Assembly (NCBI GenBank): GCA_029948255.1
Contig: JALIZF010001720.1
Coordinates: 77,001-141,000, forward strand
DNA from: Telmatactis stephensoni
Lineage: Eukaryota > Cnidaria > Anthozoa > Actiniaria > Isophelliidae
Direction of reading: 5' to 3'
DNA: 64,000 bases
Made by a program: the position numbers and the translations under genes. A model generated the notes under the pieces. That model saw only the letters and a program-made list of their open reading frames with translations. It ran no database searches and was not told the origin of the DNA. The first letter of the stretch is position 1. Every line of letters starts with the position of its first letter. This document shows, piece by piece, positions 1 to 64,000 of the stretch.

Positions 1-329
1 TCTTTGATCTTTGTGGTTGAGTGTACTGTATTGGATCCATTCACTTGTGGCTACCATCCACTTAACTTGTTGACACTCAGCAGAACCATAAGGTAGTAGG
101 TAGAAGGGATGTGTTATAGGAAGATCAATAGTTTGGCTTTTTACTCCAGTTGTTTTGCAAAAAAAGGAAATTTTAAGGTCGTACGCGTCATGACCAGATT
201 TTTGTATCCCGTTTTTATGTTTTAACCTTAAAACTGGATATCCATTTCGCCAGCTGTTATCCATTTTAATCCAGCCATCCTTCATATCAGTTGGTGTAGT
301 GCTTCCTTCTTTGTAGATACAGTATTGAC
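1..329 (-). CDS. Paralog A exon 4: ApeC domain, C-terminal half (truncated by window edge)
   Basis: Begins GQYCIYKEGSTTPT and continues through FFCKTTGVKSQTIDLPITHP and FYLLPYGSAECQQVKWMVA to WIQYSTLNHKDQ at the left edge. The missing end should encode the YCYYES motif seen in the other copies. Confidence 0.75.
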
Positions 330-2161
330 CTTTATAAAATATTTGAGATATAACGCGCGCGCTGATTGGTTGGCTACCATGTTTATATCAGAGGACAGAG
401 ACATGGCTCGCTCAAAAAACGTCGAAAATATTTCATAAAAGCAATATAAAACGATCGCTTATGTCTCTGTACTGTGATATAAACACTCTGGAAGATGTAA
501 GTAGAGCACTCGAAAAGCAAGAAAAACACTCGGCTATACGCCTCGTGTTCCCTAAGCTTGCTTTTCTCTTGCACTACATCTTCCATCGTGTTTATATCAC
601 AGTACAGAGACATGCGCGCGCGTTTTACATTCCTTAAGAAACAACATTGTTGATTTACAACTAGCTTGTTATCAATTGAAGAGAAATCAGTCTTCATTTA
701 ATGTCGTTCCCATCAGTAACCAGTAAAAGTTAACTTGTCACGTACCTTTTGGCCAATGAAGAGATGTCTTCTTTGTTTTTGTACAAAATGACCTGAGAAC
801 GTAACTTCTTGTGACGTACCCATCGATGTGTAGCACCGCTGACCGGTTATTTTTAACATTAGCAACTGTATGTTGGACGACCCATCCATTATCGACCCAC
901 TGTGAAGGGCATCCTGAGGTAGGCTTGAGAAGGGAGTAGGTTCCTTCAGGCCAAGACCAGATTTCTCCTATGGAATGTGAAGAATAAAAGCAATAGCACT
1001 CGCAGAGGTGTGTATATATGATCTTATGCAGGTTATCACTTACTTACGGTACGTCGTAGAGTATACTGGCGGTCAGTATATTTGGGTATCATGGTAGTAA
1101 TTGGTGGCCATATATGTTGTGCAGATATGGTGTTTTTTAATTTGGTAGCAACATCATCAAAAGCATAGATGCATGCACGCAGCAGCAGCAACAGCAGTGG
1201 GAGCTGCAGCAGCAGCAGTGGCGATGGTGTTAGTAAAGTGCAGTGCAAACCAGCAAGGGAATGAAAGCCGAATTCGTAACGTGAATGTTTATCCTACAGT
1301 AGTTCAAAGTTTAAGGTTGTTGCTCAGATTTGATATTATATAATAGACCCTTGCAGGAACTGGTCACGTGACACGTCATCAAAATATCAACAGTATCGTA
1401 ATGACAAAATGGTTGACATATTAAGAAGGAGCATCCTTAAATTGGTACTTTTACCAAGTTTGAGCCTTCTTCGATATATTGGAAAAGATTTATATTTTTT
1501 GAAATTGCAATATTTTTACAAAGGCTACATGACTGACGGCATGCCAAGGTTTTCAAAAACTTCTTTCCTTGAATCATTACAATCAAAAACACGTACACAT
1601 GAAAAAACCTAGGGTGCTTTTTCTAATGCTGCTGTCCATTTTGTCATCAGAGCTGATATCTCTGTGTCTTGTGTCACGTGACCAGATCCTGCAAAGGGCC
1701 TATTAGCCTACCCTACCTATAAATTGATAAACATCATTAGCCCAAGGTCCTCCAACTCCATTTCTACAGGCTGTAAATTTTCCATGTTTACCATATGTTT
1801 TGTATGCAGTAGGACCACTCCAGCATTCATTCGAATTTTGAACAGCAAAAGTGTTGTATCCTTTTTGGTCAGCTTTGGATGCACATTCTTCAATAGGATT
1901 ACCCCTCTTGACCAAGCCAAGACGAGTCGACATGGCCCTATAGTTCCCATTATCTTTGTAACAGCCAATGTGTTTGTATTGCAGTGCTAAAAATCAATTG
2001 AGATTCAGATGAGATTCAATGAGGGATTATGGTGTACCGTGGGAGAGTTTCGAAGAAACTGGTAATCAGAAGATGGAGGCATGGATTAACAGTTGGAATT
2101 GTGGGAATTTGCCTTCCCATTGCTTTGGGATACTACTCGTTAAGTTCAGTATGAATCAGTG

Positions 2162-2216
<55 letters not shown>

Positions 2217-3767
2217 GATTCAATGAATCGATGGGATGAGTATTGCGGGCGCACGAATCCCTGACGGCTGAAATCTGAGCCTATGGGATTAGGCGTTCCC
2301 ATACTCCTTGCCCCATAGACTCATGGTTTACTAATATTACTGGGGATTATCACCTCTTTCTCAGTTGCCATGGGAACAGTGAGGCCAAGTAAGGGATTTT
2401 CACCCTTGAGAAAGGGTAGAATGTGAGTTTCTCCCCTCAGCGGCCAAGGCGGTGTGTACCCCTGGAGAGAGAATGGCTACAATTGTAGCTCTCCTTGCAA
2501 TGCAATGCTATGTGTTGCGAATATAATTATATAAGCCTATCCTAAAGGATGATCATCCTTCAGTAGAGGTTTAATGTGAGTTTCAACTCTCAGCAGCCAG
2601 GAGGCTCTTCACCCCTGGAGAGAGGGATGTTGTCCCTCCTTGCCATGCACTGACCAGTATGTTATCGACTGTGATTGTAGACGGAGACGTAATTGTCATT
2701 CCACATATTGGTTTCAGGTTGTCTAATGTGTTGGGAGCATTAATCCCATTTACATGTTAAAATCAATAAATCAATATCGATATAAATGGGGTTTAAATGA
2801 TCTAGAACTGAAAGCTCAAAAGCACAATGGCCAAAATTTCCATTCCAACACAACTGATATACAATTATGCATGTTTTCTTGATTTTAAATCAAACAATTT
2901 TTAAGGCTTAAACATTGTATATATCCATTGCTGTTACTCAACCTTAGCTGCTTAAGTCTACTGACTTGCCTTTATTAGATGTACTCAATTTTTGACATCA
3001 GACATCGCCCCGGAAATCGAAATACAAACCGCAAAATGTTTCCTTTAGCGGAAGAAAATGAAAACCCATAAAAGAACCCACAGGCTGAAATTTATAGTTA
3101 AGTAAGCATACAATATATTTACGAATCCTATTCAGCCTGACAAATAAACAGGTTCATATATGTTAAAACTTATTAAGCTCAGACACACATGTACTGACCA
3201 TGGTAAATGACAAGTCATTCATCAAAAATGATAATTTATTATGAATATGCAGAATATTATAATATATGATTGCAGTTTGGTTGTTTATCAGGTTCAGTGC
3301 AGTTTGGTTGTTAATATACAAACTCTTCATTTTCTATAGTTTAATTACTAATTATTTCGACTTTTAATGAAATGCACTATCAGGAACATTTTTTACTATA
3401 AATAAGAACCTATACTGATTAGAACCTGTTCAGCTTAATTTTTCACTTGACACCCAATTTATAAGAACCACTTCAGCCTGACATGAAAAAAAAAACCAGA
3501 GTTCTTTATATGCGGGTTTGTACTATAATGCTTTTATAACATTTTGTAAGAAGCTGTGATACAATTCTTCGTGGTTTTGTTTATCAATTGGTTTACTGTT
3601 AAATTTACTAAGTGCACTGCGCACTGTTGTTCTAAACTGAATAATCTCCACTCTATTTGCACATTGTAGATGAATAACAATTTTGAGTTCTACTTACCTG
3701 TATTACAGCTGGTTATTGTGAGAATTACACTACACAAGTACAAAATACACTGAAGTTTTATGAACAT
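1..3767 (-). CDS. Paralog A: WSC-like/ApeC receptor gene, 5' half only
   Basis: Exons in transcript order are 3698-3767 (signal peptide), 1717-1986 (WSC-like), 746-967 (ApeC first half) and 1-329 (ApeC second half, cut by the window edge). Every junction is phase 1 with GT/AG sites and no stop occurs in the joined frame. By comparison with paralogs B, D and F, the CUB, stalk, transmembrane and tyrosine-tail exons should follow just left of the window. It is one of only two copies here with a full WSC-like exon (the other is D). The role is inferred: an extracellular microbe-binding receptor. ApeC domains of amphioxus bind peptidoglycan components, but nothing shows that this copy does. Confidence 0.75.
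345..640. mobile_element. MITE-like inverted-repeat element, family 1 copy 1
   Basis: An imperfect palindrome in a paralog A intron. Both sides hold GTTTATATCA/GAAGATGTA-type blocks and acgcgcgc ends. A second copy lies at about 27720-27970 in paralog D. No coding capacity is seen. Confidence 0.5.
746..967 (-). CDS. Paralog A exon 3: ApeC domain, N-terminal half
   Basis: 74 residues with the ApeC signature WSWPEGTYSLLKPTSGCPSQ, then NGWVVQHTV, HIDGYV, RSFCTKTK and a closing WPK. Phase 1-1, donor GTACGT. The frame is open and all key Cys and Trp positions are kept. Confidence 0.75.
1717..1986 (-). CDS. Paralog A exon 2: WSC-like Cys-rich module
   Basis: 90-residue phase 1-1 exon. It starts with YKHIGCYKDNGNYRAMSTRLG, has an ECASKADQKGYNTFAVQ core, and closes with CRNGVGGPWANDVYQF. 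The GCYxD...RAxxxxLG...C...GYxxFxVQ spacing resembles WSC-type carbohydrate-binding modules found in many cnidarian proteins. The acceptor is TTTTTAG and the donor is GTAGGG. Confidence 0.65.
   Translation of the reverse strand, partial: HCNTNTLAVTKIMGTIGPCRLVLAWSRGVILLKNVHPKLTKKDTTLLLFKIRMNAGVVLLHTKHMVNMENLQPVEMELEDLGLMMFINL
2160..2216. repeat. (TCAA)n microsatellite
   Basis: About 14 perfect tetranucleotide units in the first intron of paralog A. The rest of this intron (1987-3697) shows no exon I can support. Confidence 0.85.
3698..3767 (-). CDS. Paralog A exon 1: signal peptide
   Basis: ATG opens a 23-codon hydrophobic leader (MFIKLQCILYLCSVILTITS then CNT) ending phase 1 at a GTAAG donor. 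The same exon recurs at 14442, 21999, 33940 and 61468. The ATG is chosen because it is conserved in four of the five copies. Confidence 0.75.
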
Positions 3768-7096: not shown

Positions 7097-7345
7097 ATAC
7101 ACGACTTTCAAAAATGGCAGCCTAGTACATGAGAACGAGGCCACAAAGGCCTTATTTCCAGAAAATAAGTGTGGCAGCACTTCTATTGCTATCCAAGACG
7201 ATATGTTTCTCTTTCTTTTGAAATACCTATTTTCTGTGCATTTTACAGGATATACTTAGACTCATTTGATGCCATGATGATTTTAGTGGCCTTTCTGGCC
7301 TCGTTCTCGTGAATAATGAGCCCGCCATTTTTGAAAGTCGTCTAT
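7097..7345. mobile_element. TIR MITE, family 2 copy 1
   Basis: Terminal inverted repeats acgactttcaaaaatgg and ccatttttgaaagtcgt, with inner inverted blocks around GAACGAGGCCA. A second copy is at 31121-31378. Non-autonomous, with no transposase. Confidence 0.7.
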
Positions 7346-7379
7346 AAGCTAGAACACAATTTTGACAGTGAGACCGATG

Positions 7380-7668
7380 TCAATTATTAATTGTATGGTA
7401 CATTATGTCGTCATTAACTGGTTGGTAATCAGGCTGGGATTCCTCTGGTGTTTGGTAAACAGGTTCATCATCTTGGTCATTTTGGCGCTGAGTTTTGATT
7501 GGCTGAGATGATCTATTTAGTTGGTCATACTGTCCAGGGACATCGTGCTTGGGTAGGACATTACGACTCAACTTTTCGTAGCCTTGGTCGTTCTCTTCAT
7601 TTGTTTCACCCGTTGTTGTGTAAAGCATCGTTGAGCTGTTAAAATGGGTCATTGGAATCGCTTCTGGT
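7380..7668 (-). CDS. Paralog B exon 8: tyrosine-rich cytoplasmic tail
   Basis: Encodes an acidic NEENDQGYEKLSRN segment (hemITAM-like), then GQYDQLNRSS 13 residues after the first YxxL, then PVYQTP, DYQPVN and IMYHTI before TGA. There are five tyrosines in SH2-ligand-like settings. The acceptor CATTAG is shared by all paralogs. Confidence 0.8.
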
Positions 7669-10600
7669 CTAATGAACAGGAAAGCGTTACATGTTAATTA
7701 ATTAATTACATCCTTGAGAATAATTGAAAAGGTAGAAACAAACGCGTCGCAATGCGAGACATATTCCACTCTGATGGGCTTGCAATTTAGGAACGGTATT
7801 ATCCATTAGTTACTCTTTCCCTGGTTTGTAATGGGTCGACAATATGGTGCCCAAAAAAACCCGAGTTTACGGCTTAACTAAAGAGCTTCTAAAAGCGACC
7901 AGGAAAGAGCAAGGATGGCAGAGTGGGTTAGTGCGCGGCCTTCGGTGCGAGAGGTCCCGAGTTAGATTCCAAGTAACTTCACACTTGCTTCGACTTCAGT
8001 TTCCTTTCCATGTAGCTTTGATTAGCTATAAATACCCGTAAAATGGAGCACTGATGGAGAGAGAACGATAAAATGAGCGCACCATCGCAGTCTCAATTTT
8101 ATTAGTCAATTTGTGACTATTACGAGCTACCGATGTAAAATAAGGACTCGTTACCTTTATGATTAAAGAGATAAATTATAATTTCAACGTGTTACTAAGG
8201 GAGAAACTACTGCTAAATTGTGAGCTCGCACGAGAGGTGTCACGTATTCTATTATTGCGTGACTACCGTGACAACGACGTAACGTCACGTGCCATTTCAC
8301 TTGTTTCCCACATTATTTACGCCGGCGGCTTCCTGATGGTCTTTTATAAAATATTATTATCGTTTGTCAGCAGGCGAAAAAATATGATCAGCCACGACAG
8401 AATATGTCGAAAGAGATGAAAGAGATGAAAGAAAGAGATGAAGGGAAAGAAAGAGATGAAGCGAGCGCAGATAATGATTATGATGGAAGCAATGATGATA
8501 TATTATACTGATAATACGTCCTGTCGATATCACTCCCTTCTAGAGTTGTTATGATGAAACAAGGGCATAGACATTTGCATAATACTGCTAATCATATGCA
8601 GGTACACCTCTGGCCTCACTTTGGTACAGCTAAACAATAGCATGGTTAGGTGATTCTTCTGTTTTATTGCGCCAAAACGAGGCGAAGGGTGTATCTGTAT
8701 ATTATTAGTAGCTTTATGCAAAGGGTCTATGATGTACGAAAACTGTATAATAGGTTGTTTGTCTTGGTCTAGGAGCGTAAAATGTCCTCAGAATTAAAAC
8801 ATTCCATATCCATTCCTCCTATGAAGAACCGTAAATAATAAAAAAAATCCTCAAATAATGTAATGTGAATTGGATCTGGAAGTCACTTTTACACGAATGA
8901 CGTCACCCTTATAATCTCTTTATCGATAATGAAGATGCAGATGATGATGATAACTGGGATAGTGTTTATTATAACGATATCGATAATGATAATGATGATA
9001 AATTAACCTTATTACCTTTTACCGTAGGTGGGATTGACTGCAAACTGGTCACTGTCATTGTAACTCCTACACGTAAGATAAATTAACAAATAGATTTCAT
9101 TTTTTTGTGCGTCTGTACATGTACTCTAGCAGGTGCACAGATGACGTCAAAATAATGTAGCGATAGCAAAAGGTTACGCCACGAGACGTGGCGTGACTGT
9201 TGCTCTCATCACATTTTGACGTCTTCTGTGCATTTATTAGAGTACAGACCTACAGAAAAATGGAATCTATTTGTTTTATATAATATTCATTGAAACATTT
9301 CAACCAATCAGAGCGCGGGTAAGATTCAATGACGTCATCATGTGTGTGTACATGTATTGTTATCATAAGTGGTTCTCGACCAATCAGAGCGCGCGTATTT
9401 TTAATTACCAATTATTATATAAATCACAGTTATAAAAATCACCTCCTGCCAGTAATAAGAACAATACTAAAGATAAAAAATACCTTGGCTCAAATCCCTT
9501 ATTCTTCAAGCGAGAACTCAATCTGTGCAATGCAAAACACATAAGTTTAAGGTATAAGAAATAGCTAAGGAGTGATAATGACAGAGTATTCTCTAAGGCC
9601 GTACTGATGAAGGCAATTTGTCCCCGGTAGCAGGGAATACAATTTTGTTTTTAGTGTTCGGTGAATGTACTGTTTTAGGAATAACTGTTGCACTATCGTC
9701 ACGCAATACGATGCATTAATCAGGTTTGCAGTTTTCCCGCCATGTGTTTCGCCATATCTAAATAGACAGTTAGTTGAGTTAGATCTCACGAGTCGATTTT
9801 AACAGCTATGCTGCTTTAAACGTAACATATTATAATGAATTTCTAACAGTTCTGAATCTCGATTCTGAAGAAATATGTTGGAAAATTTCCCGTGAGCACT
9901 CAATTTTATTTCCTAATTTGAGTGCCGTTCAATAAGCCACTTCACACTTTCGTACGCCATTTTGAATTGGGGCAAACGCGCAGAATTTCGGAAATCTAGA
10001 TCATTTTGGCTTACCATAACTCGGCTCAATTTCATCGTATTTTTTAAGAAATTATTTTCTTAAACGATATTGGCTGTGTTATTGATGACTGTTTACATGA
10101 CAAATATTGGAAGACTACAAGACGAGAAAAAGAGGATTTTTGTTTTCAAAATAAAACGTTCGGCACGTAAATATTAAAATCATTCGCAAAAAAAAGATTG
10201 ACTTGAAAAACGTAGTTAAAATTGTATTGGTCTTATTTTCAGTCCGACATGTCTGCAAATCATTATTGAAGTTTTAAATTTTGAAAATCCGACAAATTCG
10301 AGCCGAGTTATGGTAAGCCAAAGTGATCCAGATTTCTATAAATTTTGGCGCGTTCGCCCCAATTCAAAATGGCGGACGAAAGCGTGAAGTGGCTTATTCT
10401 AAGTACTTTCAACTATCGATGGCGTCGTACATGTACAATTCAACATACCTGTAACGGTAAATAATGTCTATTACCACAACCAAGACAAGTATAAAACAGA
10501 CCAGCGGTATCACTATCAGTACTGCAGTCCCAGACCCTTCGCAGTTGGCTTTTGACGTGTTAGAAGAAGAATCCTTGTTCTTTGACTTGTATGAACCTAA

Positions 10601-13600
10601 AGAAAAAAAGGTAAAATTAAAATCTACCAGAGAATTACTATTTGTTTCTGACTAAAATTGATGATATGATTTGATATTTGATTATATTGACTATTTGATA
10701 AATACACCGTTTCAGAAAGAAAACTGAGAAAAGATCAAGAAAAGAAAATAATTCAATAAACTGCTTATATTGTTAGAGATAAAAAACTCACTTTCATCAA
10801 GAATGATGTGATATTCAGCGTGAAATCCCGAACTGCTTTGAGCCTGATTTGAACGAAACACGAACACCAAATCACTCGTTGAATTGACCTTAAACGACTC
10901 CAGACTACCACGGTAAGCCTTCACAAGTTCCAAACTATCATTTGTTGATGTGTAATACTCCAGTACGTCAGTGTTGTTACCATTCTCAACGGCGAGTGAA
11001 AAACTTGTAAAGTTCACGTGAATGGTATGATTGGCGGGAACCTGAATCTTCAACGAGCAAAGCTGTCCATCCGGGTACTTATCAGGAAAGCGAGGAGACT
11101 GGAATCTACCTTTTGAGTCATTCAGCGTTTTGTTACAACCTAAGAACAGTAAATTATTGAGTATGTCTTATCTTAAGGTGAAGGGTCATATGTTTGGACA
11201 ACCGCGCTTCACTGATTAATTCCCCGACGTAAAAACGCCTTAACTTAAACTGGGTTCTACAGATTATTACCAGTCGAAAAGGCGCTGTGAGAATCATGTA
11301 CCAAAGACAGGATTCGAATTTCGAGCATTTTGCTTTAATATATCACCTTAATCCTATTCTTGTCCTTCCGTTTATAAGCCGATCAAAATGATACTATTTT
11401 AAAATGAGGAGGAGAAAGAGGAGGAATAGGAGGAGGAGGAGGAGGAGGAGGAGGAGGAGGAGGAGGAGGAGGAGGAGGAGGAGGAGCTAGGAGGAGGAGG
11501 AAGATCGGGAGCAATCCGTCAGAACCTAGCGTGTAGATAGGGACGGGTGTAAATTGTTTACAATATCAAATGATTCTAAAAAACCCTCGTTAGACCTTAT
11601 CATACTTCAGGCACCATACCAACAGGGTTCCCAGGGGTCAGGGAAAAGTCAGGGAAAAACACAGTCAGGGAAAAGTCAGTGAAAAGTCAGGAAATTCTTT
11701 ATTTGGTCAGGGAAATTGAGATTTTCACTTCAAGTCAGGGAAAAGTCAGGGAATTTTGTATAAGTAACTAAAAAATATTTCTTGTAGATGCTATTTTAAG
11801 AAAAGAAAAAACTTTCAAAGAGAATAAATTATTTGAAGCATTTAACAAACTGGTCATGTTAGTTACACCAACGTTTTTCCATTTTTTGTCTTCTGTGGCG
11901 TATTTTGATAAAAATGGCCTGGATACAACTTAAATTAAGGCAGCCATATTGGAAGTAATTTACGAACTGTTGTGTTTGTCTTGTGCAAAATAGTCAGGAA
12001 AAACTGAGTTTTAGTCAGGAAAAAGTCAGTGAAAAGTCAGGGAATTTAATATTTCAGAATGGCTGGGAACCCTGACCAGCCAGTTGTCTTTCTAGCATAC
12101 TACAATGAGATCCATTCGATTTAGAATAGCCTTGGCAGTTAACACACTAAAATTAGCCAAATAGTATGGCTTAGACTAGAATTTAAATCGAGAAAAACAC
12201 ATGGAAAGTACGGCGTACGTATGAACTAGGCCTTAGAGTTTCAAACAAAGTAGTTTCCTGCTACACGTACTTACTTTCATAATAACAGTAAAACATGGTA
12301 AGACCTTTTTGACTTTTAGAGCCAACTTCAGTGTAAGGAACTGTTCCATGTTCGAACTGTGGCCATGTTTGTCCTTGGTAATTAAGTGTACTGTATCGGA
12401 TCCATTCACTTGTGGCTACCATCCACTTAACTTGTTGACACTCAGCAGAACCGTAAGGTAGTAGGTAGAAGGGATGTGTTATAGGAAGATCAATAGCTTG
12501 GCCTTTTACTCCACTTGTCTTGCAAAAATAGGAAATTGTAATATCAACGCCAGGTTTCTGTATCCCATTTTTGTGTCTTAAGCTTAAACCTGAATTTTTA
12601 TCATAATCCCATTCGCTATCCATTATAATCCAGCCATCCTTCATACGAGTTGGTGTAGTACTTCCTTCTTTGTAGATACAGTATTGACCTGAAACAACAA
12701 CGTACCCTTTTTTATTTCATAAACATATTCTTCATGGTTTAATACAATCTCTGTATGAAAATTCTCCCCTCCCTGGCGGCAAAGGTATATTCCGAACAAT
12801 GAAATCCCTTTAGTTTTTACAAGAACAGTATAGCCAACCACTGCTTTTGGAGCTAACGTACGTATTATGCGAGAGATTGATGCAGCCTTTGATTATGCTA
12901 TTATCATGAGTTATAATCGTTTATGATAATATTTGACGCACCTTCTGGCCATTGTAGAGATGTTGTCTTTGTTTTTGTACAAAACGACCTGACCACGTCA
13001 TTACTCCTAACATAACCACTGATGTGTAATACTGCTGACCGTTTGTTTTTTACATTATCAACTGTATGTTGGATGAGCCATCCATTATCTTCCCATTGTG
13101 AAGGGCATCCTGAGGTAGGCTTGAGAAGGGAGTAGGTTCCTTCAGGCCAAGACCAAACCCCTTCTGTAAGGTTGAAGTATATATAAATATTTATTGGGTT
13201 GTTGGAGGATGCTTTGCTCGGTGGATCAATAATAAAGAATTGAAGCAAGCAAGCAAGCAAGGAGCAAATAATGAAAGAAGGAAGAAAGGATGAAAGTACA
13301 AACTGAACGTTCTATTAAGTAGTTTATACGATACCAATTGAGATTTTAGGAACTAATGAGCATCATCAGCCCCTGCAGTTGCACGGGATAGCGGCTATCC
13401 GTTGGATAAACCTTTATCTGCCATATCCATTGGATAGTAAATTTATCTACTAGATAAGGTTTTACCCAACGGATAGCGCTATTAACTCATCGTGCAACCG
13501 GACGAGTAATAGATGTGAAGTTGAAAATTTTAATAATATTATTCATTTTTAGTAATAATACTGAATAAACTCTTTATTTTTTAGACGGAGCCAATTTAGC

Positions 13601-16191: not shown

Positions 16192-16612
16192 TTAACCAAG
16201 AATTGTGAGGTACATTTGGTCGTCATTCATTGGTTCATAATCAAGTCTTTCTGGTGTCTGGTCAACAGGTTCTTCATATTGTAGGGACACCCTTTCATGG
16301 TCAGTTTGATGCTCAGTTTTGATTGGCCGAGATGATCTATTCAGAGGCTCATACTGTGTTGATGAGACGTTTCGGTTTAACTCTTGATAGCCTTGGTTAT
16401 TTTCTACATGGTATGTTTGATGCTCAGGTTTGGGTAGCCGAGATGATTTATTCAGAGGTTCATACTGTGCTAGAACGTCGTTTTTTGTTGAGAGATTTCG
16501 GGTTAACTCTTGATAGCCCTGGTCATTTTCTTGACGTCTTTCACTTATAGTTGTACTTCTATTCACTGCTATAGTTGCGCTGTTTAAATGAGTTATAGGA
16601 ATTTCCACTGAT
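16192..16612 (-). pseudogene. Paralog C exon 8: tail with duplicated ITAM-like block
   Basis: Open to a stop at 16192. The NDQGYQELTRN...QYEPLN block is present twice. In the second copy the two YxxL motifs are separated by 8 residues (YQELNRNVSSTQYEPL), which matches classical ITAM spacing; the first copy has 13. It also has a YEPM (PI3K-type YxxM) and a C-terminal MYLTIL. Confidence 0.75.
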
Positions 16613-17068: not shown

Positions 17069-17119
17069 CTTTCGTTGTCGGCTGCATCGGTAACAGCTTG
17101 CTCATTGCCATTGCCATAA
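17069..17119 (-). pseudogene. Paralog C exon 7: NPTY exon with the motif lost
   Basis: 51 bp, phase 2-2. It encodes SYGNGNEQAVTDAADNE where B, D and F have VNPTY. Splice sites are kept, the endocytic/PTB motif is not. Confidence 0.65.
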
Positions 17120-17219: not shown

Positions 17220-17258
17220 CTTGCTTCGTTTCTCTGACTCTTCAAACGAAACCTCAGT
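17220..17258 (-). pseudogene. Paralog C exon 6: basic juxtamembrane segment
   Basis: 39 bp, phase 2-2, encoding LRFRLKSQRNEA between CAACAG and GTATTT. Same position and length as in B and D. Confidence 0.65.
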
Positions 17259-17706: not shown

Positions 17707-17866
17707 CTGCAGCGATAAATAATGTCGATGATAACAACCACTACAAGTATAACACAGACCAGCGGTATTACTATGAGTAAAATAGTTGTTGAATTGGTTG
17801 ATTGATGGGGTGTTGCTTGTGTTTCAACATCAGCACCATTCAGTGTTGGGTTCTCTGTGGTGGGTT
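17707..17866 (-). pseudogene. Paralog C exon 5: stalk and transmembrane helix
   Basis: 160 bp: a Thr/Pro-rich stalk beginning EPTTENPTLNGADVETQATP, then ILLIVIPLVCVILVVVIIDI and YRCR. Phase 1 in, phase 2 out. Confidence 0.75.
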
Positions 17867-20717: not shown

Positions 20718-20939
20718 CTTCTGGCCATTGTAGAGATGTTGTCTTTGTTTTTGTACAAAACGACCTGACCACGTTATTACTCCTAACATAACCATCGATA
20801 TGTAACACTGCTGACCGGTTGTTTTTTACATTATCAATTGTATCTTGGATGAGCCATCCATTATCAACCCATTGTGAAGGACATCCTGAGGCAGGCTTGA
20901 GAAGGGAGTAGGTTCCTTCTGGCCAAGACCAAACTTCTC
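20718..20939 (-). pseudogene. Paralog C exon 2: ApeC N-terminal half
   Basis: Open 222 bp exon: EVWSWPEGTYSLLKPASGCP, NGWLIQDTIDNVKN, RSFCTKTKTTSLQWPE. Intact in itself. Confidence 0.75.
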
Positions 20940-51191: not shown

Positions 51192-51840
51192 TTACGGGTG
51201 CTGTGCCAAGAATGATAAAACCGCGTGTCCAGATTTACTAGTGCCGTGAATTAAAAAGACTCTACTAGAGTAGGTTTGGTATGACTGTGAAAACGATACC
51301 GCACGGTCACGGCACGTTCCGGTAGGAATTTCGAATGTTTTTATAGACACCACAGCACTGAAACGGTCACGGCACGGCGCGGACCGTTTCACACTCATAC
51401 GAAATCTACTCTGTTCTCCTACGCAGCTGTGTTTAGTCTCGTCACGCAATTTGCAACGCTCCATCGAAGGAGTGTTGCGTGATGTGACATTCATTTTTAA
51501 TTCAATATACCCATACTTATCGTATAAAAGATTGCTTTCGTAGAAATCTTTGCCAGGCGGTTTGCTATCAATTGTGTGGTACATATGGTCGTCATCCACT
51601 GGTTCAGAATCAGGTCCCTCTAGTATCTGGTAAACAGGTCCATCACATTCTAGAGAATCAGTTTTGATTGGCTGAGATGACCTATTTAGCTGCAGCTCAT
51701 ATTGTTCTCGGACGTCGTGTGTGCGTAAGGTGTCACGACTCAATCTGTTGTAACCTTGGTCCTTTTCGTCATCTGTCTGACCAACTGTGGTGCTAACTGT
51801 GGCTGTGCTGTTGAAATGGGTCATTTGAATTTTTCCTGAT
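51192..51840 (-). CDS. Paralog F exon 8: tyrosine tail with long read-through
   Basis: Core to about 51517: DDEKDQGYNRLSRD, EQYELQLNRSS, GPVYQILEGP, DHMYHTID, NLLYDKYGYIEL. The frame then stays open through inverted-repeat DNA (51267-51480) to TAA at 51192, about 108 further codons with no family similarity. The true end may be a splice at a GTATGG near 51514. Confidence 0.65.
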
Positions 51841-54800
51841 CTAATAAACGGACAATAAACATTACAAAAGCTATATCTGATGAATATGACGAAGATCTCT
51901 AAAAGGAGGTCAATCAAGTCAATATTGACGATCATCACATTACCCTTCCCCAAAAAAGGGCTGGAAACTAGATCAGTTTTTCGGCCGCAAGGGCATGTGG
52001 GATTGTTACTGGGGATGAGACAATTAATGGCTTGGACGTACACTCGATGTAACATTTTGCTGCAACATTGCGCGCAACACAGCAGCAGCGTGTGTCCACC
52101 CCTGCATTGTGCGTGGAATGTTGCAGAGAAAGTTGCAGAAATAGAACTCAATCTCACACAACGTTACTTGCAACTGTAACAGCCGCTGGAGGACACACGT
52201 TGCACGCCACGTTGCATGGTAGACACATGGTGTACTTTGTGTTGCACACAGTGTTGCAGGAAAAGTTGCAAGAAAAGTTGCATAGTGTGTACCGGCCTGA
52301 AGAATGCCTAAAACAGCTTCGATCTAAACGCAAATTATCCAGTGTTTCTTCTTGTTAAAGTTGATATTCATGCTGGAACTAAACTCCTGAAACTGATTAA
52401 CGGTTGACTATTTGCTCTGTCTCCGCAATGATGGTTGACGGATATGAGAGGCGCATAAAGGAAAATTATGATTACGATGGTGTCAATGACCACTACAACG
52501 ATGATGATGATGATGATGATGTTGACCGAGCCTTATGTCGTGATAAGTTTGCCTTACGTTTTTCCGTAAGTTGGATTCTCTGCTATCTGGTCATCGTCAA
52601 TGTCACTGGCCCTAAAAGTGAAAGACAAATCCTTGATTATCTTGGAGATCAAGAGTATCTTCTAATCTTATAGTCCGCCATCAAAGATTATGAAATACCT
52701 TAAGTTATTTATTGGAAACTTTCTGGTCTTTGATCTGTCGAAACAAATTTATTGATATCAATGTCAATAGTTGTCCACTAAATGTGTGAGAAAGAATAGT
52801 GGACAAGTTCTCTCCCCTTTCTCTTTTTTTCTTTCCTTTCTCCACAGTTATCAAATAGGAGGAAAAATGCAGAAAGGGAAACGCGGAAAGGAAATACGGA
52901 TAACTATTTCTTTGGTCTTTTTACATAGGGATAGGATAACCCTCCTAGTAGGGTAAACCTGTTAGAAGGGACAAACGATAGTCCTTCTAGGAGGGTTACT
53001 CTACCTTGAGCGTTTCAGTACATGGCTTATGTAAACAAAACGTTGTCCCTTCTAGGAGGGTTACCCTAGCAAGCTGATAGGGTAACCCTACCCCTAGGTA
53101 ATCCTACCCCTAGGATAACCCCAGCTGTCATGTCAATACATCTAAAGAAATGTATGACAGAAGGGTAACCCTTCAAAGCTCACAAGAATCTTCATAGAAG
53201 GAGGTGGGCTCAACTTGGAAGAAGAAGAAGACCCTTCTGGGAGGATTACCGTCCTTAGGAGGGTTATCCTTGCTCGCATGTAAACAGGGCCTTATTTGGT
53301 CTCTCCACCCTTCCCTCCCATCCCCTCCTCTACTTTCCCTTTCCTCTCCTGAACATCCCCTCATGCTACTCACCTGCAACGATAAACAATACCTATTGTA
53401 ACAACCACAACAACTACGAAACAGACCAGCGGTATCACTATGAGTATAGTAATTCCAAATCCCTCGCAGTTGTCTTTCAAGGAGTTTTGGGAGGAATTTT
53501 TGGACTTGAATTCAGTTGTGGTTGACTGGCGTATTTCAGTTGGGGTATGAGTAGTCGTTGGGTTCCCTGTAGTGGGTTCTACAAGAAAGAAGATTTTCAA
53601 TAAGCGTTATAAGAACTGGCTGATCGTGGATAAATAAGCTAAACCGGCTCGGCATACAACTAGCGGTCATGTTGCGAGGACATGAAGTGGGAATCCCGTG
53701 CATTACACAGGCGATGTGTTTCAAGATAAGATTCTAAAATACGAATTTTTTTCTTATCGTGACACTTTAACTTGTTGGTTTTTAGTTGTAGCGGGGACAG
53801 GTCTCACGAACAGTGCCGGTACAATTCATCATTTAGGTCAAATTGTCCACGCTTCATTTCAAAATTAAATCAGTTCAATAATTTTATGGACTCGTCCAAA
53901 GGACAGATTGTTGTTACAACGTGTAATACACACAAGTCAGAGGAAATGTCGATGCAACACCTCGTGTCCCTAGGGGACGTGTCCGAGCTGAATCTGATCA
54001 AGATTCCCCAGATTCTGGCTAGTCGCTAAAGGTAAAGCCAGCACTATATTTAGCGTCGGCAAGCTAATCTCCCGGGAATTAAGCCCATGTTGTGCTCTTT
54101 ACCCCTCCCTCCATCAATGCTCCGATTTAAGGGTATGTAAAGCCGCCTAAAGCTGCATAGAATAGAAAGAAGTCGAAACATCCAGTGTGAGGTCACAGCT
54201 GGAAATCGAATTCGGACCTCTCGCTTGATAATCAGAATAATAACACTTTATTTATTGAGGATATGACAGTGATCAGAAAATTGAACTCGCACCAAGCAAC
54301 TGAGCTACAGTTGCTCCTTGTATTTTTGTGTTTTTACTTATACAAAAATCAAGTTGCTTATGGAAAATCCAATTCTAACCTTTCAGAATCTCCGTAATTA
54401 GTAATTTCATTTGAATATCGAATGACGCCGAAAAGAAACTGGATCCGGAGAAATAAAAAGATAGTAAAAAATATTTCTTTGAGGATAAACATCTTACCTT
54501 CAGTCAAGAATGATGTGATACTCGGCGTGAAATCCCTGAACTGCTTGCTAGCCTGATTGGAACGAAACACGAACACCAAATCACTTGTTGAAATAACCTT
54601 AAACGACTCCAGACTACCACGGTAAGCCTTCACTAGTTCCAAACTATCATTTGTTGATCTGTAATACTCCAGTACGTCAGCGTCGTTACCATTCTCAACG
54701 GCGAGTGAAAAACTTGTAAAGTTCACGTGAATGGTGTGATTGGCGGGAACCTGAATTTTCAACGAGCAAAGCTGTCCATCCGGGTACTTATCAGGAAAGC

Positions 54801-57800
54801 GAGGGGACTGGAATTCACCTTCCATGTCATTGATTGTTTTGTTGCAACCTGTATAAGTGATTATCAAGTTTGATAAGCATTAAGAAAATACTACAACTGA
54901 AGGAAAGCTTGAAGCATAAATCTGTTTCTTTGCATTGGATAAACATAATCGTAATATATATCAAATAATCATGCAGTAGCAAGGAAACACAAGACAAAAA
55001 AAATCGAGAAAATTAACGTTTGAGCATGCGTGGTAATCACTTGTCAGATTTTGTAATATTATGAAATTTAGAGCGCTTTCATTGGTGATAGTACTGATGA
55101 AAGAACTTCATTTCGCCGTCGCTTTTGAGTTTCAAACGTCTCCTCTTCTAAACTTATCGCCTATCGCCAAAGCAAGACCCTATTTCAGTGCATAGCAACC
55201 GTTGCACAGCAACGTTATATGTTAGTACACCCTTAAGCCAAGACAAGATACAAAAGGGTAAGTCAGTGGATCCCCGCAGAGGAAACGTGCATAAAAGAGG
55301 TGCGGTATTAAAGATCGAAAAATAGAATATAATTCCGCTTTTCTGTGCAAGTCCCACTATCAGCCGCGTTTAGTCTCGTCACGCAACGCTGTCAAGAGCT
55401 GGAGCGTTGCGTGACGAGACTCAGTAAATTTGTATGGTTCGATGGTACTTACTTTCATAATAACAGTAAAACATGGTAAGACCTCTATGACTTGCAGAGC
55501 CAATTTCAGTGTAAGGAACTGTTCCACCTTTCATCTGTGTTTGACCTTTGTAGTTAAGTGTACTGTATTGGATCCATTCACTTGTGGCTACCATCCACTT
55601 AACTTGTTGACACTCAGCAGAACCATAAGGTAGTAGGTAGAAGGGATGTGTTATAGGAAGATCAATAGCTTGGCTTTTCACTCCACTTGTTTTACAGAAA
55701 AAGTGAATTTTAAGGTCATAACCAGATTTTTGTATCCCATTTCGATATTTTAACCTTAAAACTGTATATCCATTTTGCCAGTTGCTATCCATTATAATCC
55801 AGCCATAGTTCATATCAGTTCGTTTCCTTCCTTCTTTATAGATACAGTATTGACCTGAAACATTATCATAAGTCATTATTACTATTGCAGTCGAACCTAA
55901 CTGAAATTAAGCGGCCATCCTTGGAGAATCGTCAAGAAATAGCTTAATTGAGATTGGCTGATTATTAGAGGTTAAAATATGAAACAACCAGACTATTCAT
56001 TCTTGACAATTAGTTGAAGTGGCGAGTTTGTTTTTCTGTACACGATGGTCAAAACGGCTATGTTTTTCTCCCACTCGGGTCAACAAAAATTTGTAGAATG
56101 CTCAAGAATGTCTTGTATGCAACGAAACTTGTCATGGAGGTAGTTTGAGGTAGTCCACATTTAACAAACTCTATGGCTCACTTGGGACTGTCATGTTGAC
56201 GTCATAAATGACGTACAAATTTGGCGCCAAAATTTTGAATTTTGAAATTGATTTTACTAACTATCCAAAAATGTTCTTTGGTCAAAATGATGCATTTCAG
56301 TGAAAACCCCATGTAAATCCGATAATTGGTTCAAAAGTTATTCCTTTTTAAATATTTTGAATCTCCCGCCAAATGAGCAAAAATGTATGGAATTCACCAT
56401 ATATGGTCAAAATTTCGGGTATTTCTAGCTCTAACAGTATAATCAGAGTCAGTTTGAAACAAAGTGAATAATGCATTAAAACAAATTTGTAGTTTTTTTG
56501 ACTTTGGAACTTTTGTGTCACGTGGAGTAATACGTCATTTCCTTATAGATATTACGTCATATGTATAAGGAAATGACGTAATACTCCACGTGACACAAAG
56601 GTTCCAAAGTCAAAAAAACTACAAATTTCTTTTAATACATTATTTACTTTGTTTCCATCTGGCTTTGATTATATTTTTAGAGTTAGAAACACCCTAAATT
56701 TTGACCATATATTGTGTTGTCTTGACCATATATGGTATTATTATATTTTGAAAATAATTCAAGAGTTTTGATTGGCTAAGAGCCACCGGATAAATTACCA
56801 TAGTCGCCGGCTAGCTGCCCAAATTTGGAGTTATGAAAATGTTGAAAACCATTATTCGAAGTTATGACGTAATTTTCTCGAATATGGAAAATTAGCTTGC
56901 GGTATGACGTCACGCTAATTTATGCGGTTCATGCCAAAAGCGAGCAAACAACAACAACATGTATTCTTGTCAACAAAGCACAACTGAGAAAGAATTATTT
57001 TCAAAAAATAATAAAACAATTATTGAATTCGTTTCTCGTAGGATATGGGGAATTATTAAGGCCTCGGTTTGTGTTATCTGCCTCAGCCTTCGGCTTCGGC
57101 AGATAACACAAACCTTGGCCTTAATAATTCCCCATATCCTACTCGACCTCATCCAATAATTGCTTAATATCTCTCAATTTTGGCGGGAAATTCAAATTTC
57201 TTTAATCAGTCATAACTTTTGAACCATTTATCGGATTTACATGGGGTTTTCACTGGAATGCATCATTTTGACCAAAGAACAATTTTGGATAGTTAGTAAA
57301 ATCAATTTCAAAATTCTTAACTTTTGCGCCAAATTTGTACGTCATTTATGACGTCACCATGACAGTTGCAAGTGAGACATCAAGTTTGTTAAATGTGGAT
57401 TTACTCAAACTACCTTGATGACAAGTTTCGTTACAATCAGACAGTTCTACAAAAATCTGTGAACCAAGTGGGAGAAAATCGAAGCATTTTGACCATCGTG
57501 AGTTTTAGTTACCGATTTTGGTTTTAAATTGTTTTAACTGTGATCAGCAACTACTCTGAACTGCTGACTGAGAGTCTGTCTGCTAGCAGTTTTTTTGAGC
57601 CCTCATTTTACCATTAGTTTGAAGTAAGTAAATACTAATCAAATGTAAAGTCCGGAATTCAAAGACTTGTGAAGGACACATTGTAAAATAAAGTGAACAG
57701 GGGCTGGAAGGGATTTTGCGTGATCCGTGATTTGCCTAAAATCCTCTGCGTAATCGACCTGCAGATTTTGCTGTGATTTTCGTGAAGAAAGCTATATATA

Positions 57801-59207: not shown

Positions 59208-59293
<86 letters not shown>

Positions 59294-61534
59294 TATTGAT
59301 TTATTAACAATCAAATCTGACTCACCTTCAGGCCATTCAGGGGATGTCCTCTTCGCTTTCATATGACAAAACGACCTTACCACGTAATTACTAGTAACAT
59401 ATCCATCGATGTGTAACACCGCTGACCGGTTGTTTTTTACATTATCAACTGTATCTTGGATGACCCATCCATTGTCGACCAATTGTGATGGACATCCTGA
59501 GGCAGGCTTGAGAAGGGAGTAGGTTCCTTTTGGCCACAGAATCTCGTCTTTAAGACATTAAAAATGGGGAAATAATGAATGGTAGTGGTGGTGTTGGTGC
59601 ATGGGTTTGGTAGTGGGGGTTCTAGCAGTGATGGCGGTGCATGTGATAGAGGTGTTGACAGTGGTAATGGTAATGGCAGTGGTAGTAGTAGTAGTGGTGG
59701 TAGTAGTAGTAGTGGTGATAGTTGCAATATGTTTGTATTGTTGTGCTAAAAATGAAATGATTGTACCACCATGAGACTTAGCTAGTATGGGATCATGCCA
59801 TGCATATGTTTTTAATTAATTATATATATATAACGATGATGGTTTGATGGGTCACAACTTAAAAATTATCTATTTTCGAAATCTCCATTTTATTTGTATA
59901 GGAAATCATATGGTTTCGAGTGCAACTTAGAATATATTTGAACAAGTGGGATTTCAAAGAGCTTTTTGAAATCCCACAAGTTCAAATGTATTCCAAACTG
60001 CACGAGAAAGCCATATGATTCCTATTAATGATATACATGAAAAAAATTAGAAACAAATGAAACTCTGGAAAAGAGCGAAAATGTTTGAATAAAACCTGAG
60101 CACGCGCTCGATGACATGTGATGGCGTCAGGAGCGCGTGTTTCGTGTGATAGCGTCAGTAGCGCGCGCACATTTCAGCTAAAATTTTATTCAAAAACAAA
60201 ACAAAATCTTAAACTTTTTCGCCTTTTTCTCATTCAGATTTTTCCTTTCTTTCCTTTTCCTTTGCTATGTAATGTGAACAACAGCAAACTAAGAAAACTT
60301 TGATTTTGACGCTGTTTTTGAGAACTCAAATTTGTACCAATATTTCCTTTTTTCTGCACTAAATTTCCTTTTTTCTGCACTAAATTTCCCTGAAACTGCA
60401 CTGCTCTTAGCCAATCAGCATCGATAACTTTTTTTCATGTATATTATTATACCTAAAACTATCTTCTGGTCTTAGATCATGACACACGATGAGAGAGTTG
60501 AGAGAAACAGATGAGCAAATTGATAATCTGAAGTGACTGCAATTTATATACCTTTCCATTGCTTGAAAGTACTAGTTAGCACGAGCTAAGTTCACTACAT
60601 GTATCAATCAGTCAATCACTCACTCACTCACTCACTCAATCAATTAATCAATCAATCGATCGATCGATCGATCAATAAATCATGAACTATCAATTAAGAA
60701 ATACAGTCAACCGAGGCACTTTTCTTGGTGATTTATCTTCTATATATATAAGTAAGAGGAACATGGAATAAAACTTAGAAATGATAAATGACCGACCAAA
60801 AGTTCCCAAACTCCTCATTTGAAAATTTGATAATCATTCCTTCATGAATTGAAAATCTGGATGCCTATTATTCTTCAATGAGGATGTTTACTTTTGGAGG
60901 TATAAGCATTTGAAATCAGAAAATGCAAATGTGACGATAACCCAGGAATTTGCCTTATTGCGATCGAGTATATATAATTTTATAAGTTTTCAGCAAGTAC
61001 GTTCGAGCCGGAAGTAGCAAAAACACATTGATATTGATCATACTGTTTAGGTTAGCAATGAAAATGTTTTGAATTGGAAATGAAAAAGTGTGATTTAATA
61101 GTCCTTATTTGACATCAGGCTTCATTTGCATTTTCAGACTTTCAAATGCTCAAACTTACCTCAGAAAGGTGTCAAACCATAAAGCTTTTCTATTCATGAA
61201 GAAACTATTATCAAAATTTCTTTAACATTTTTCTAAACTTTAACGAAAGCATAATCTGAAAGTACACATGTATTTGTTGTTGTTGTTGTTCTATGTAGAT
61301 TAATCAAACCAATTTTACCACGGCTAAAACATCTAACACCTGCCAGATATTGCTACATATCTTTGTCATCTTTTTGTTTATTATTATATTTTTGCACTGT
61401 AAGTGGTTATTTGTACAATTTGCACACGATTAATAAAGTTTAGTTCTGCTAGACCTTTTCTGCTTACCTGCATTACAGCTGGTTCTTGTAAGAACTCCAA
61501 TACACAAGCACAACATACAATAGTTTATGGCCAT
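51192..61534 (-). CDS. Paralog F: ApeC-CUB transmembrane receptor with extended tail
   Basis: Eight exons: 61468-61534, 59326-59547, 55453-55854, 54498-54848, 53374-53578, 52699-52734, 52558-52611 and 51192-51840. The sum is 1986 nt, or 661 residues plus stop, with no internal stop when the eroded WSC exon is skipped (phase 1 to phase 1). Residues 1-22 are the signal peptide, 23-230 ApeC, 231-347 CUB, 348-415 stalk and transmembrane helix, 428-445 NPTY and 446-661 the tail. Two oddities: the last part of CUB is read in another frame owing to compensating indels, and the tail reads on into inverted-repeat DNA. Intron 2 holds 3 kb of nested foldbacks. It may be expressed but altered. Confidence 0.7.
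51267..51413. mobile_element. MITE-like repeat inside the F tail frame
   Basis: agagtaggtttggtatgac and its rough inverse at 51395-51413 flank CACGGTCACGGCACG blocks. Related to 42945-43185. Confidence 0.5.
52040..52300. mobile_element. Degraded relative of the 41928 MITE
   Basis: Repeated GTTGCA/TGCAAC words and ends like ttttgctgcaacattgcgc and aaagttgcatagtgtgtacc. Similar composition and word content only. Confidence 0.4.
52558..52611 (-). CDS. Paralog F exon 7: NPTY motif
   Basis: 54 bp, phase 2-2: ASDIDDDQIAENPTYGK. (ATG)n lies next to the donor as in the other paralogs. Confidence 0.7.
52699..52734 (-). CDS. Paralog F exon 6: basic juxtamembrane segment
   Basis: 36 bp, phase 2-2, SKTRKFPINNL between split Arg codons. 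One codon shorter than in the other paralogs. Confidence 0.6.
52910..53293. mobile_element. Element with GGAGGGTTACCCT repeats
   Basis: Several ctaggagggttaccct-type units in both orientations. The right end tgctcgcatgtaaacagggcc resembles the 32320 element. Confidence 0.45.
53374..53578 (-). CDS. Paralog F exon 5: stalk and transmembrane helix
   Basis: EPTTGNPTTTHTPTEIRQST, a Cys before the membrane, then ITILIVIPLVCFVVVVVVTI and VYRCR. Phase 1 in, phase 2 out. Confidence 0.8.
54498..54848 (-). CDS. Paralog F exon 4: CUB domain with frame-shifted end
   Basis: 117 residues. Normal to DLVFVFRSNQA. A net +2 then shifts the frame (SKQFRDFTPSITSF replaces SSSGFHAEYHII), and a +1 near the donor restores phase 1. 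The normal frame would meet TGA. The exon stays open, but the last beta strands are changed. Confidence 0.75.
55453..55854 (-). CDS. Paralog F exon 3: ApeC C-terminal half
   Basis: 134 residues: QYCIYKEGRKRTDMNYGW, FFCKTSGVKSQAIDLPITHP, LLPYGSAECQQVKWMVATSE, MFYCYYES. Closest to A in its first third. Confidence 0.8.
56041..57500. mobile_element. 1.46 kb foldback element with nested hairpins
   Basis: Ends cacgatggtcaaaa and ttttgaccatcgtg begin inverted arms of about 300 bp each (gtacaaatttggcgcc against gcgccaaatttgtacgtcat). The centre has two further hairpins, 56400-56715 (tgacgtaatactccacgtga) and 57035-57145 (aggatatggggaattattaa). No protein of its own is seen. Confidence 0.75.
57797..58780. 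mobile_element. 1 kb TIR element with internal hairpin
   Basis: tatattatggacgtatttag and its inverse near 58760 are the ends. 58446-58755 is itself a long hairpin (ctgaatcaagagaccataat and inverse). Confidence 0.7.
58776..59048. mobile_element. MITE adjoining the previous element
   Basis: tatacacttatttcaaaaaa and ttttttgaaataagtgtgta ends, with AACGTTGTC...GACAACGTT and CATTAC/GTAATG inner arms. Confidence 0.75.
59210..59290. repeat. (TTGA)n microsatellite
   Basis: About 20 units, 35 bp past the donor of F exon 2. Likely polymorphic. Confidence 0.9.
59326..59547 (-). CDS. Paralog F exon 2: ApeC N-terminal half
   Basis: EILWPKGTYSLLKPASGCPS, NGWVIQDTVDNVKN, HIDGYVTSNYVVRSFCHMKA, EWPE. It has a one-residue insertion after the FC (FCHMK against FCTK). 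The donor is GTGAG. Confidence 0.75.
59547..59750 (-). pseudogene. Paralog F: WSC exon eroded by triplet repeats
   Basis: The usual ATTTTTAG acceptor and the opening QQYKHI at about 59715-59745 survive. From there the exon is replaced by ACC/ACT triplets encoding a run of Thr and then TAA. GCYKD and all later WSC motifs are gone. The module is probably skipped. Confidence 0.65.
59900..60022. mobile_element. Hairpin MITE
   Basis: aaatcatatggtttcg pairs with a matching inverse near 60010, and gggatttcaaagagc with gctttttgaaatccc at the centre. Confidence 0.6.
60603..60675. repeat. Compound tetranucleotide microsatellite
   Basis: Runs of ATCA, TCAC, AATC and ATCG units follow one another. Confidence 0.75.
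61468..61534 (-). CDS. Paralog F exon 1: signal peptide
   Basis: ATG then AINYCMLCLCIGVLTRTS and CNA, phase 1, GTAAG donor. Confidence 0.75.
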
Positions 61535-63369: not shown

Positions 63370-63517
63370 CCGAATCGAAATATGGTGGCAAATTTGAATA
63401 ACTATACTGACTAGCCTATCATTCATGTGAAAACGCTTTTGTATTTTCACGTGAACACGAGGCTAGTAAGTCCAGAACAATAGTTATTCAAATTTGCCGC
63501 CATATTTCGATTCGGTC
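63370..63517. mobile_element. Hairpin MITE
   Basis: accgaatcgaaatatggtgg and ccatatttcgattcggt ends; CAAATTTGAATAACTAT and its inverse inside. Confidence 0.75.
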
Positions 63518-63730
63518 AATTGCGTAATGCATCCATACTAGCCATACGTACTAGCTAAATGTTTGGAATATCCCCCAGGGTCCATGCAACTTGCTCGATT
63601 CTTCGGTGTTGCCCAGGCTGTCCAATTCTCTAAGGAGCTATAATAATGTCATAACCTGGCGCCGGTAAAACTCATCTATGGAAATCTTTATTTCATAGTT
63701 GTGATAGCACTCGTAACGTTAAGGATAGTT

Positions 63731-64000
63731 TTAACCATACCTATCATATAATACATTTCTTTCGTAGAAATCGTTGTTGGAAGACGTTTTCCTGTCTACT
63801 GTATGGCACATTTGGTCGTCGTACACTGGTTCACAATCAGGCTCTTCTAGTGTCTGGTAAACAGGTCCATGAGATGATCTATTTAGATGGTCATATAGCT
63901 CTGGGACGTCGTGTGTCTGCAAGGTGTTACGACTCAACCTTTCGTAGCTTTGGTCGTTCTCTTCAACTGTCTGACCAACATTTGTGTTGATTGTTGTTGT
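63731..64000 (-). CDS. Paralog G: tail exon only
   Basis: Open from the right edge to TAA at 63731: VEENDQSYERLSRN, ELYDHLNRSS, GPVYQTLEEP, DDQMCHTVD, FYERNVLYDRYG. Three YxxL motifs. The C-terminal MYHTI tyrosine of B and F is Cys here, and a segment between NRSS and GPVYQ is shortened. The rest of the gene lies right of the window, so the array continues. Confidence 0.75.
   Translation of the reverse strand, partial: TTTINTNVGQTVEENDQSYERLSRNTLQTHDVPELYDHLNRSSHGPVYQTLEEPDCEPVYDDQMCHTVDRKTSSNNDFYERNVLYDRYG

Follow-up and report, generated by a model that had tools for sequence, protein, structure and literature searches.

A tandem array of ApeC-CUB genes with transmembrane segments and tyrosine-rich tails in the sea anemone Telmatactis stephensoni, a candidate family of engulfment receptors

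Organisation of the array

The sea anemone Telmatactis stephensoni carries, within a 64,000-nucleotide stretch of contig JALIZF010001720.1 (assembly GCA_029948255.1, positions 77,001 to 141,000 of the forward strand; hereafter the 64-kb window), a tandem array of genes that combine an ApeC domain, a CUB domain, a transmembrane helix and a tail rich in tyrosines. When eight exon peptides from the window were searched back against both of its strands with tblastn, matches fell on the minus strand only and comprised five copies of the first ApeC exon (ApeC-1), six of the second (ApeC-2; one of them a relic with a stop), four of the CUB exon, two of the WSC exon and five of the tail exon. The transmembrane exon gave three matches, and a fourth copy, in g3, was located through alignment. 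Across copies the exons recur in the order (WSC), ApeC-1, ApeC-2, CUB, transmembrane and tail, and they resolve into seven units, namely g1 to g5, a sixth gene seen by its tail only (g6) and one ApeC relic, in agreement with the first-pass annotation of this DNA, which had described at least seven related minus-strand genes or relics. Comparison of the copies by blastn revealed additional shared exons, a signal-peptide-like exon upstream and short juxtamembrane exons.

All coordinates below are window positions on the minus strand and, unless another source is named, the exons rest on the alignment of paralogous copies, by which splice sites were set, and on the spliced models, with Pfam matches in addition for the ApeC exons of g2, g4 and g5 and motif counts for the tails of g2, g3 and g4. 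The complete model of g2 (14508-7380) consists of a signal-peptide-like first exon with a GC donor (14442-14508), ApeC-1 (12942-13163), ApeC-2 (12275-12688), CUB (10792-11139; Pfam CUB, E 2.7e-20), a transmembrane exon (10449-10596; hydropathy 3.58), juxtamembrane exon 1 (9484-9522), juxtamembrane exon 2 with the motif NPTY (9016-9066; identified by eye and carried in the model) and a multi-tyrosine tail exon including the stop (7380-7668). The model of g4 (34009-25203) is likewise complete, with a signal-peptide-like first exon (33940-34009; also hydropathy), a WSC-like exon (29310-29606; Pfam), ApeC-1 (28941-29159), ApeC-2 (28019-28426), CUB (27136-27483; Pfam CUB, E 2e-21), an exon encoding a Ser/Thr/Pro-rich linker and the transmembrane segment (26606-26930; also hydropathy), juxtamembrane exons 1 (25978-26016) and 2, again with NPTY (25834-25878), and a multi-tyrosine tail exon including the stop (25203-25524). 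In g5 (61534-51491), the signal-peptide-like first exon (61468-61534) is followed by ApeC-1 (59326-59547), ApeC-2 (55453-55854), CUB (54498-54848; alignment and Pfam CUB, E 7.9e-16), the transmembrane exon (53374-53578), juxtamembrane exon 2 with NPTY (52558-52611) and the multi-tyrosine tail exon (51491-51840; also in the list of open reading frames); no copy of juxtamembrane exon 1 was found in this gene, where the search gave only 7-8-base matches.

The remaining units are broken or partial. The gene g3 (22060-16192) retains a first-exon remnant (21990-22060; alignment), ApeC-1 (20718-20939), ApeC-2 (19444-19852), CUB (18278-18625; Pfam CUB, E 6.4e-22), the transmembrane exon (17707-17866), juxtamembrane exons 1 (17220-17258) and 2 (17069-17119; also motif count) and the longest of the five tail exons (16192-16612). 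The gene g1 (3767-1), whose frame is open from 3767 to the window edge, has a signal-peptide-like first exon (3698-3767), a WSC exon (1717-1986; Pfam WSC, E 4.7e-08), ApeC-1 (746-967; also tblastn) and an ApeC-2 exon truncated at the window end (1-329; tblastn and alignment), and leaves the window before CUB, which was observed in g2 to g5. Only the tail exon of g6 lies within the window (63734-64000; tblastn and motif count), the rest of that gene being beyond it, and the relic of ApeC-2 with its in-frame stop is found at 35049-35231 (tblastn and alignment).

Without a stop, the spliced lengths are 525 amino acids for g2, 690 for g4 and at least 550 for g5, such that these three copies are open over 525-690 codons and seven to nine exons in a single phase scheme. 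All three models run from a signal-peptide-like start through an optional WSC-like exon, ApeC, CUB and one transmembrane helix to the juxtamembrane NPTY and repeated YxxL motifs. Introns begin and end with GT-AG in 29 of 30 cases and with GC-AG in the remaining one, behind the first exon of g2. The exons from the first through CUB end in phase 1 and the transmembrane and juxtamembrane exons in phase 2; with all ectodomain exons in phase 1, the optional WSC exon can be gained or skipped without a frame shift. Signal peptides were judged by eye; of the three N-termini, only that of g4 attains a 19-residue hydropathy of 1.5, those of g2 and g5 staying below it. Each of the three models has a single transmembrane segment with a hydropathy of 3.3-3.6.

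The open frames claimed by the first-pass annotation hold for g2, g4 and g5 once spliced; they fail in g3, in which the start-codon position reads ACG, the first exon contains an extra base and a one-base insertion lies behind the ApeC-2 acceptor; g3 is therefore either a pseudogene or a gene carrying sequence errors. In g5, three one-base insertions near the end of CUB add up to one codon, restoring the frame and replacing the last strand of the domain, and the tail frame continues past the position of the g6 stop, open to about 51192.

Extracellular domains

Both principal modules recognised in the first pass score far above the Pfam gathering thresholds in the three complete spliced models. 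ApeC (PF16977) reaches 159.1 bits in g2, 167.6 in g4 and 153.8 in g5 against a threshold of 26.5 (E 4.5e-49 to 7.3e-45), covering profile positions 1-208 of 208 in all three, while CUB (PF00431) reaches 73.2, 76.8 and 58.8 bits, respectively, against 21.4, with the g5 match ending at position 100 of 110. The optional WSC-like module, also proposed at that stage, is upheld in part: the exon of g1 passes the gathering score for WSC (PF01822; 33.6 bits versus 27.8), whereas that of g4 falls below it both as an open reading frame (20.0 bits) and in the spliced model (19.3 bits), so that "WSC-like" is the apt term. No WSC remnant better than E 2.8 was found by tblastn in g2, g3 or g5.

Upstream of ApeC-1 of g5, at 59558-59815, a WSC-like start with a 36-base match to g1 passes into a threonine-coding microsatellite, in which tblastn found no WSC; a WSC exon of g5 may have been destroyed by repeat expansion.

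Pfam matches to TMEM154 and EVI2A were below the gathering cut-offs in the full models and were attributed to the composition of the linker and transmembrane segment, although TMEM154 narrowly passes (32.0 versus 30.3 bits) on the open reading frame of the g4 transmembrane exon alone. An AlphaFold2 model of ApeC from a Stylophora protein described below (P0002), built with four sequences, reached a mean pLDDT (predicted local distance difference test) of only 32.1, too low to be informative. A sequence search of the PDB returned no ApeC and one chance match at E 0.46, and scans of prokaryotic and viral contigs with the ApeC alignment gave 21 and 13 pattern matches, respectively, of which none was confirmed.

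Transmembrane segment and tyrosine-rich tail

The NPxY and multiple YxxL motifs reported in the first pass are confirmed. Of the four genes with juxtamembrane exon 2 in the window, three (g2, g4 and g5) encode NPTY just inside the membrane, and each of the five tails, with seven to nine tyrosines, contains three to five Yxx[LI] motifs, more than in shuffled versions of the same tail (p 0.0006-0.048; 5000 shuffles per tail, uncorrected, the copies not being independent of one another). In all five, the tyrosines of the first two tail motifs align and are conserved. In addition, the sequence N-x-[LIV]-Y-D occurs at the C-terminus of five of the six tails tested (g4, g5, g6 and the anthozoan proteins P0003 and P0002 described below; g3 was not in the test set), compared with 0.4-1.0% of shuffles of each tail. 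The pooled ratio of nonsynonymous to synonymous substitution (dN/dS) of the tail exon is 0.37, and the tail therefore looks constrained rather than decayed.

Immunoreceptor tyrosine-based inhibitory motifs (ITIM; [ILVS]xYxx[LIV]) number one in g2 and one in g4, no more than expected from shuffling (p 0.17 and 0.28), and are absent from g3, g5 and g6. For the activation motif (ITAM), the pattern Yxx[LI]-x(6-8)-Yxx[LI] was used, which matches once in g3 and once in g6.

Relatives in other anthozoans

A protein search, which reaches only proteins sharing short exact words, returned four ApeC-CUB relatives, all from anthozoans (three from Actinia tenebrosa, one from Stylophora pistillata), consistent with the affinity suggested in the first pass. 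An alignment search gave eight matches, the same four ApeC-CUB proteins and four CUB proteins (a metalloprotease, a hypothetical, an unnamed and a neuropilin/tolloid-like protein), which were dropped as they have no listed ApeC.

Of the relatives, P0003 (A. tenebrosa LOC116288153, isoform X1) is complete and carries ApeC, CUB, a transmembrane segment, NPTY and YxxL repeats in one NCBI gene model. Its transmembrane segment and tail are 36% identical to those of g4 over 169 amino acids (E 6e-12; tail alone E 4e-9, both for single comparisons). The first-pass annotation had named, as the finding that would overturn it, head and tail exons belonging to separate genes; this is contradicted by the phase-compatible splicing of g2, g4 and g5 and by P0003, which is also the anthozoan homologue with head, transmembrane segment and tail that had been called for. 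Because P0003 joins the same modules to a transmembrane segment and tail matching g4, the outer and inner halves very probably belong to one gene. The S. pistillata protein P0002, annotated as "CUB and sushi domain-containing protein 2", contains two pairs of ApeC and CUB together with a transmembrane segment and two NPLY motifs. P0003 and P0002 thus each unite, in a single model, the elements of the window genes (ApeC, CUB, one transmembrane segment, NPxY and a multi-tyrosine tail), and are 40% and 33% identical, respectively, to g2 over the aligned part; P0003 further differs by four ITIM-type motifs (p 0.0014), with no ITAM spacing, and by what appears to be an insertion close to the ApeC start. 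P0004 is partial and stops before any transmembrane segment, and P0001, also partial, contains stretches with NPTY and NPLY that separate an ApeC fragment from the CUB-ApeC that follows; we read this as a prediction fused across adjacent genes, and Actinia may therefore have a tandem array too. No paper on P0003 or P0002 was found, and these database proteins are uncharacterised.

Probable sequence exchange among copies

Silent variation is unevenly distributed along the exons. The pooled proportion of synonymous differences (pS) among g1 to g5 is 0.03-0.07 in codon columns 61-100 of ApeC-2, compared with 0.27-0.53 in the flanks before and after, and among g2 to g5 it is 0-0.04 in columns 51-80 of CUB, compared with 0.11-0.34 elsewhere. 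The longest runs of degenerate third positions without variation (ApeC-2, 17 of 122; CUB, 22 of 113) were reached in 35 and 62 of 20,000 shuffles, respectively. The nearest copy also changes from exon to exon. For g4 it is g5 in ApeC-1 (91% identity); in CUB, g2 (94%) and g5 (93%) are almost equally close, and in ApeC-2 every copy lies at only 75-76%. Apart from the grouping of g4 with g5 in ApeC-1 (95), the exon trees have little resolution, and no conflict between trees is therefore proven. Gene conversion is the likeliest source of the near-invariant silent sites, the alternative being constraint at the DNA level. Across whole exons, dN/dS is 0.26 for ApeC-1, 0.54 for ApeC-2 and 0.46 for CUB (the last raised by the altered end of g5), and in ApeC-2 columns 11-30 and 111-130 it reaches 1.14 and 1.02, values near 1 that permit diversification and are no proof of positive selection.

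A candidate role in engulfment

It is an open question how corals and sea anemones select the microbes and algae that they take up and retain, and to our knowledge few of their phagocytic receptors have been described. The window genes may encode a family of anthozoan phagocytic receptors whose head is formed by ApeC and CUB, a proposal that builds on the joining of a microbe-binding type of domain with the same set of tail motifs, NPxY and YxxL, as in CED-1, Draper and MEGF10. With this tail set, the earlier and more general suggestion of an immune or symbiont receptor can be sharpened to one of the engulfment type. We regard as evenly balanced the proposition that the intact members are single-pass surface receptors that bind microbes through ApeC and trigger engulfment through the NPTY and YxxL tail.

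In CED-1, the NPXY motif binds the PTB adaptor CED-6 and YXXL is phosphorylated by SRC-1 and binds NCK-1, and altering either motif abolished engulfment rescue (PMC9388098). The two motifs stand in the same order in the window proteins. Similarly, the tails of Draper and MEGF10 carry both NPxY and an ITAM that is recognised by Shark/Syk, and lipoteichoic acid of bacteria is among the ligands of Draper (PMC8092387). The likeness to these membrane receptors lies in the tail motifs, NPxY plus YxxL or ITAM, and their EMI and EGF ectodomains are absent from the window proteins. On the extracellular side, secreted ApeC proteins of amphioxus and molluscs bind bacteria as well as peptidoglycan, the Lys-type form of which is bound with high affinity (PMC9585378). 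The combination of CUB and ApeC in one protein is already known from amphioxus ACP5, which like ACP3 is a microbe-binding protein (PMC8361754), and from the lancelet lectin-CUB-APEC proteins (PMC12373286); in these, CUB precedes ApeC, and the descriptions consulted mention a signal peptide and no signalling tail. The ApeC proteins studied so far are, in the same sources, secreted, matrix, mucus or cytosolic, and membrane-bound ones are mentioned in general terms only (PMC9585378). The statement in the first-pass annotation that no ApeC receptor with this kind of tail had been described agrees with the literature searched, in which none of the listed titles, abstract openings and passages reports one, although a dedicated survey of ApeC architectures lay outside it and uncharacterised relatives are already in public databases. 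Apextrin is not mentioned in a study of scavenger receptors in cnidarians, which does list CUB together with SRCR, nor in a review of anthozoan immunity. If true, ApeC would gain a new role as part of a membrane receptor that signals through its tail, and a head from a wall-binding domain family on an engulfment-like tail would provide a concrete, testable candidate for the choice of microbes and algae for uptake.

In the mechanism envisaged, ApeC-CUB, spaced from the membrane by a linker (Ser/Thr/Pro-rich in g4), would bind the surface of a microbe or symbiont, with peptidoglycan as the first candidate ligand. Clustering would then lead a Src-type kinase to phosphorylate the YxxL tyrosines, whereupon NPTY would recruit a PTB adaptor of the CED-6/GULP type and phospho-YxxL an SH2 protein of the Syk/Shark or Nck type, and the particle would be taken up.

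Several observations weigh against engulfment. NPxY and YxxL serve as ordinary signals for endocytosis, too. NPTY has been lost in g3, the second tail motif of g5 reads YELQ instead of YxxL, g2 is without the C-terminal N-x-[LIV]-Y-D, and strict ITAM spacing (6-8) is found in only two of five tails, g6 and the broken g3, and not in g2, g4 or g5. At E<=0.01, Pfam matched neither EMI nor EGF families in g2, g4 or g5. Among the relatives, P0003 is a database gene model and not a set of transcript reads, and P0002 has no Yxx[LI] at all, nor any ITAM or ITIM match. A protein search with the g4 transmembrane segment and tail gave 128 candidates and none at E<=1, a result of little weight given that even P0003 was missed. 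The head is itself unusual, as canonical ApeC has eight conserved cysteines and DEXD/DXED motifs (PMC9585378, PMC8361754), whereas that of g2, g4 and g5 retains six of these cysteines and lacks DEXD/DXED, and is thus a divergent six-cysteine form; the first ApeC of P0002 has eight cysteines and likewise no DEXD/DXED. Peptidoglycan binding can therefore not be assumed and, as ApeC sequences also diverge widely (PMC9585378), the ligand step is the weakest of the mechanism.

Three other explanations were considered for the same architecture. In one, which we view as rather unlikely, the array is an immunoreceptor family that signals by SH2 recruitment, ITAM-like in activating and ITIM-like in inhibitory members, to alter gene expression, secretion or contact behaviour, and is not built for engulfment. 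Tandem paralogues with differing tails are a feature of paired-receptor families, and the strict ITAM spacing seen in g3 and g6 and the four ITIM-type motifs of P0003 are in keeping with such signalling; however, ITIM counts in the window tails stay at shuffle level, the spacing is missing from g2, g4 and g5, and the feature common to the window genes, Actinia and Stylophora is NP[TL]Y, which belongs to neither ITAM nor ITIM. The second explanation is a clathrin-type endocytic or adhesion receptor, in which NPxY and YxxL would be Dab2/AP-2 sorting signals and ApeC-CUB would hold matrix, mucus or a soluble ligand. NPxY and YxxPhi are classical sorting signals. Moreover, the original description of apextrin was as a protein of the apical matrix (PMC8361754), and CUB in complement proteases mediates dimerisation and protein binding. 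Nevertheless, seven to nine tyrosines with repeated YxxL exceed the need of one sorting signal, and the amphioxus and mollusc ApeC proteins bound microbes, such that we judge this explanation improbable.

The third explanation, that the array is mostly decayed, with secreted ApeC-CUB and transmembrane/tail exons forming separate or dead genes and the joined models being artefacts, would account for the lesions in two exons of g3, the one relic, and the altered CUB end and run-on tail of g5. It sits poorly with the long open frames and shared phase scheme of g2, g4 and g5, with dN/dS of 0.37 in the tail and 0.26 in ApeC-1, and with the joining of the same parts in another species in P0003, and we consider it highly improbable.

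A broader proposal may also be made, towards which we remain tentative and somewhat sceptical: anthozoans would possess their own class of germline-diversified, opsonin-independent phagocytic receptors, with a wall-sensing ApeC-CUB head on a CED-1/Draper-type tail of NPxY and YxxL, maintained as a tandem array in which gene conversion keeps the ApeC core and the CUB centre while the ApeC flanks and the tails diversify, and in which different copies pick different microbes or symbionts and determine their fate after uptake. CEACAM3, with its ectodomain of immunoglobulin fold, offers a parallel by analogy only. It is a fast-evolving, opsonin-independent phagocytic receptor for bacteria and a primate invention (PMC7026191).

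Other features of the window

Between the relic and g5, a frame of 585 amino acids with a cysteine-rich end is open on the minus strand at 44287-46044; it has no Pfam match at E<=1 and looks like a separate, unrelated gene. Also on the minus strand, long open frames at 39517-41120 resemble a mobile element (no Pfam match at E<=1 for 39810-41120) and include a stretch that we take to resemble a 2A-type self-cleaving peptide. Finally, a repeat of about 250 bases occurs at 7097-7345 and 31121-31378, outside the exons of g2 and g4, in two copies that are 87% identical and probably represent a dispersed element.

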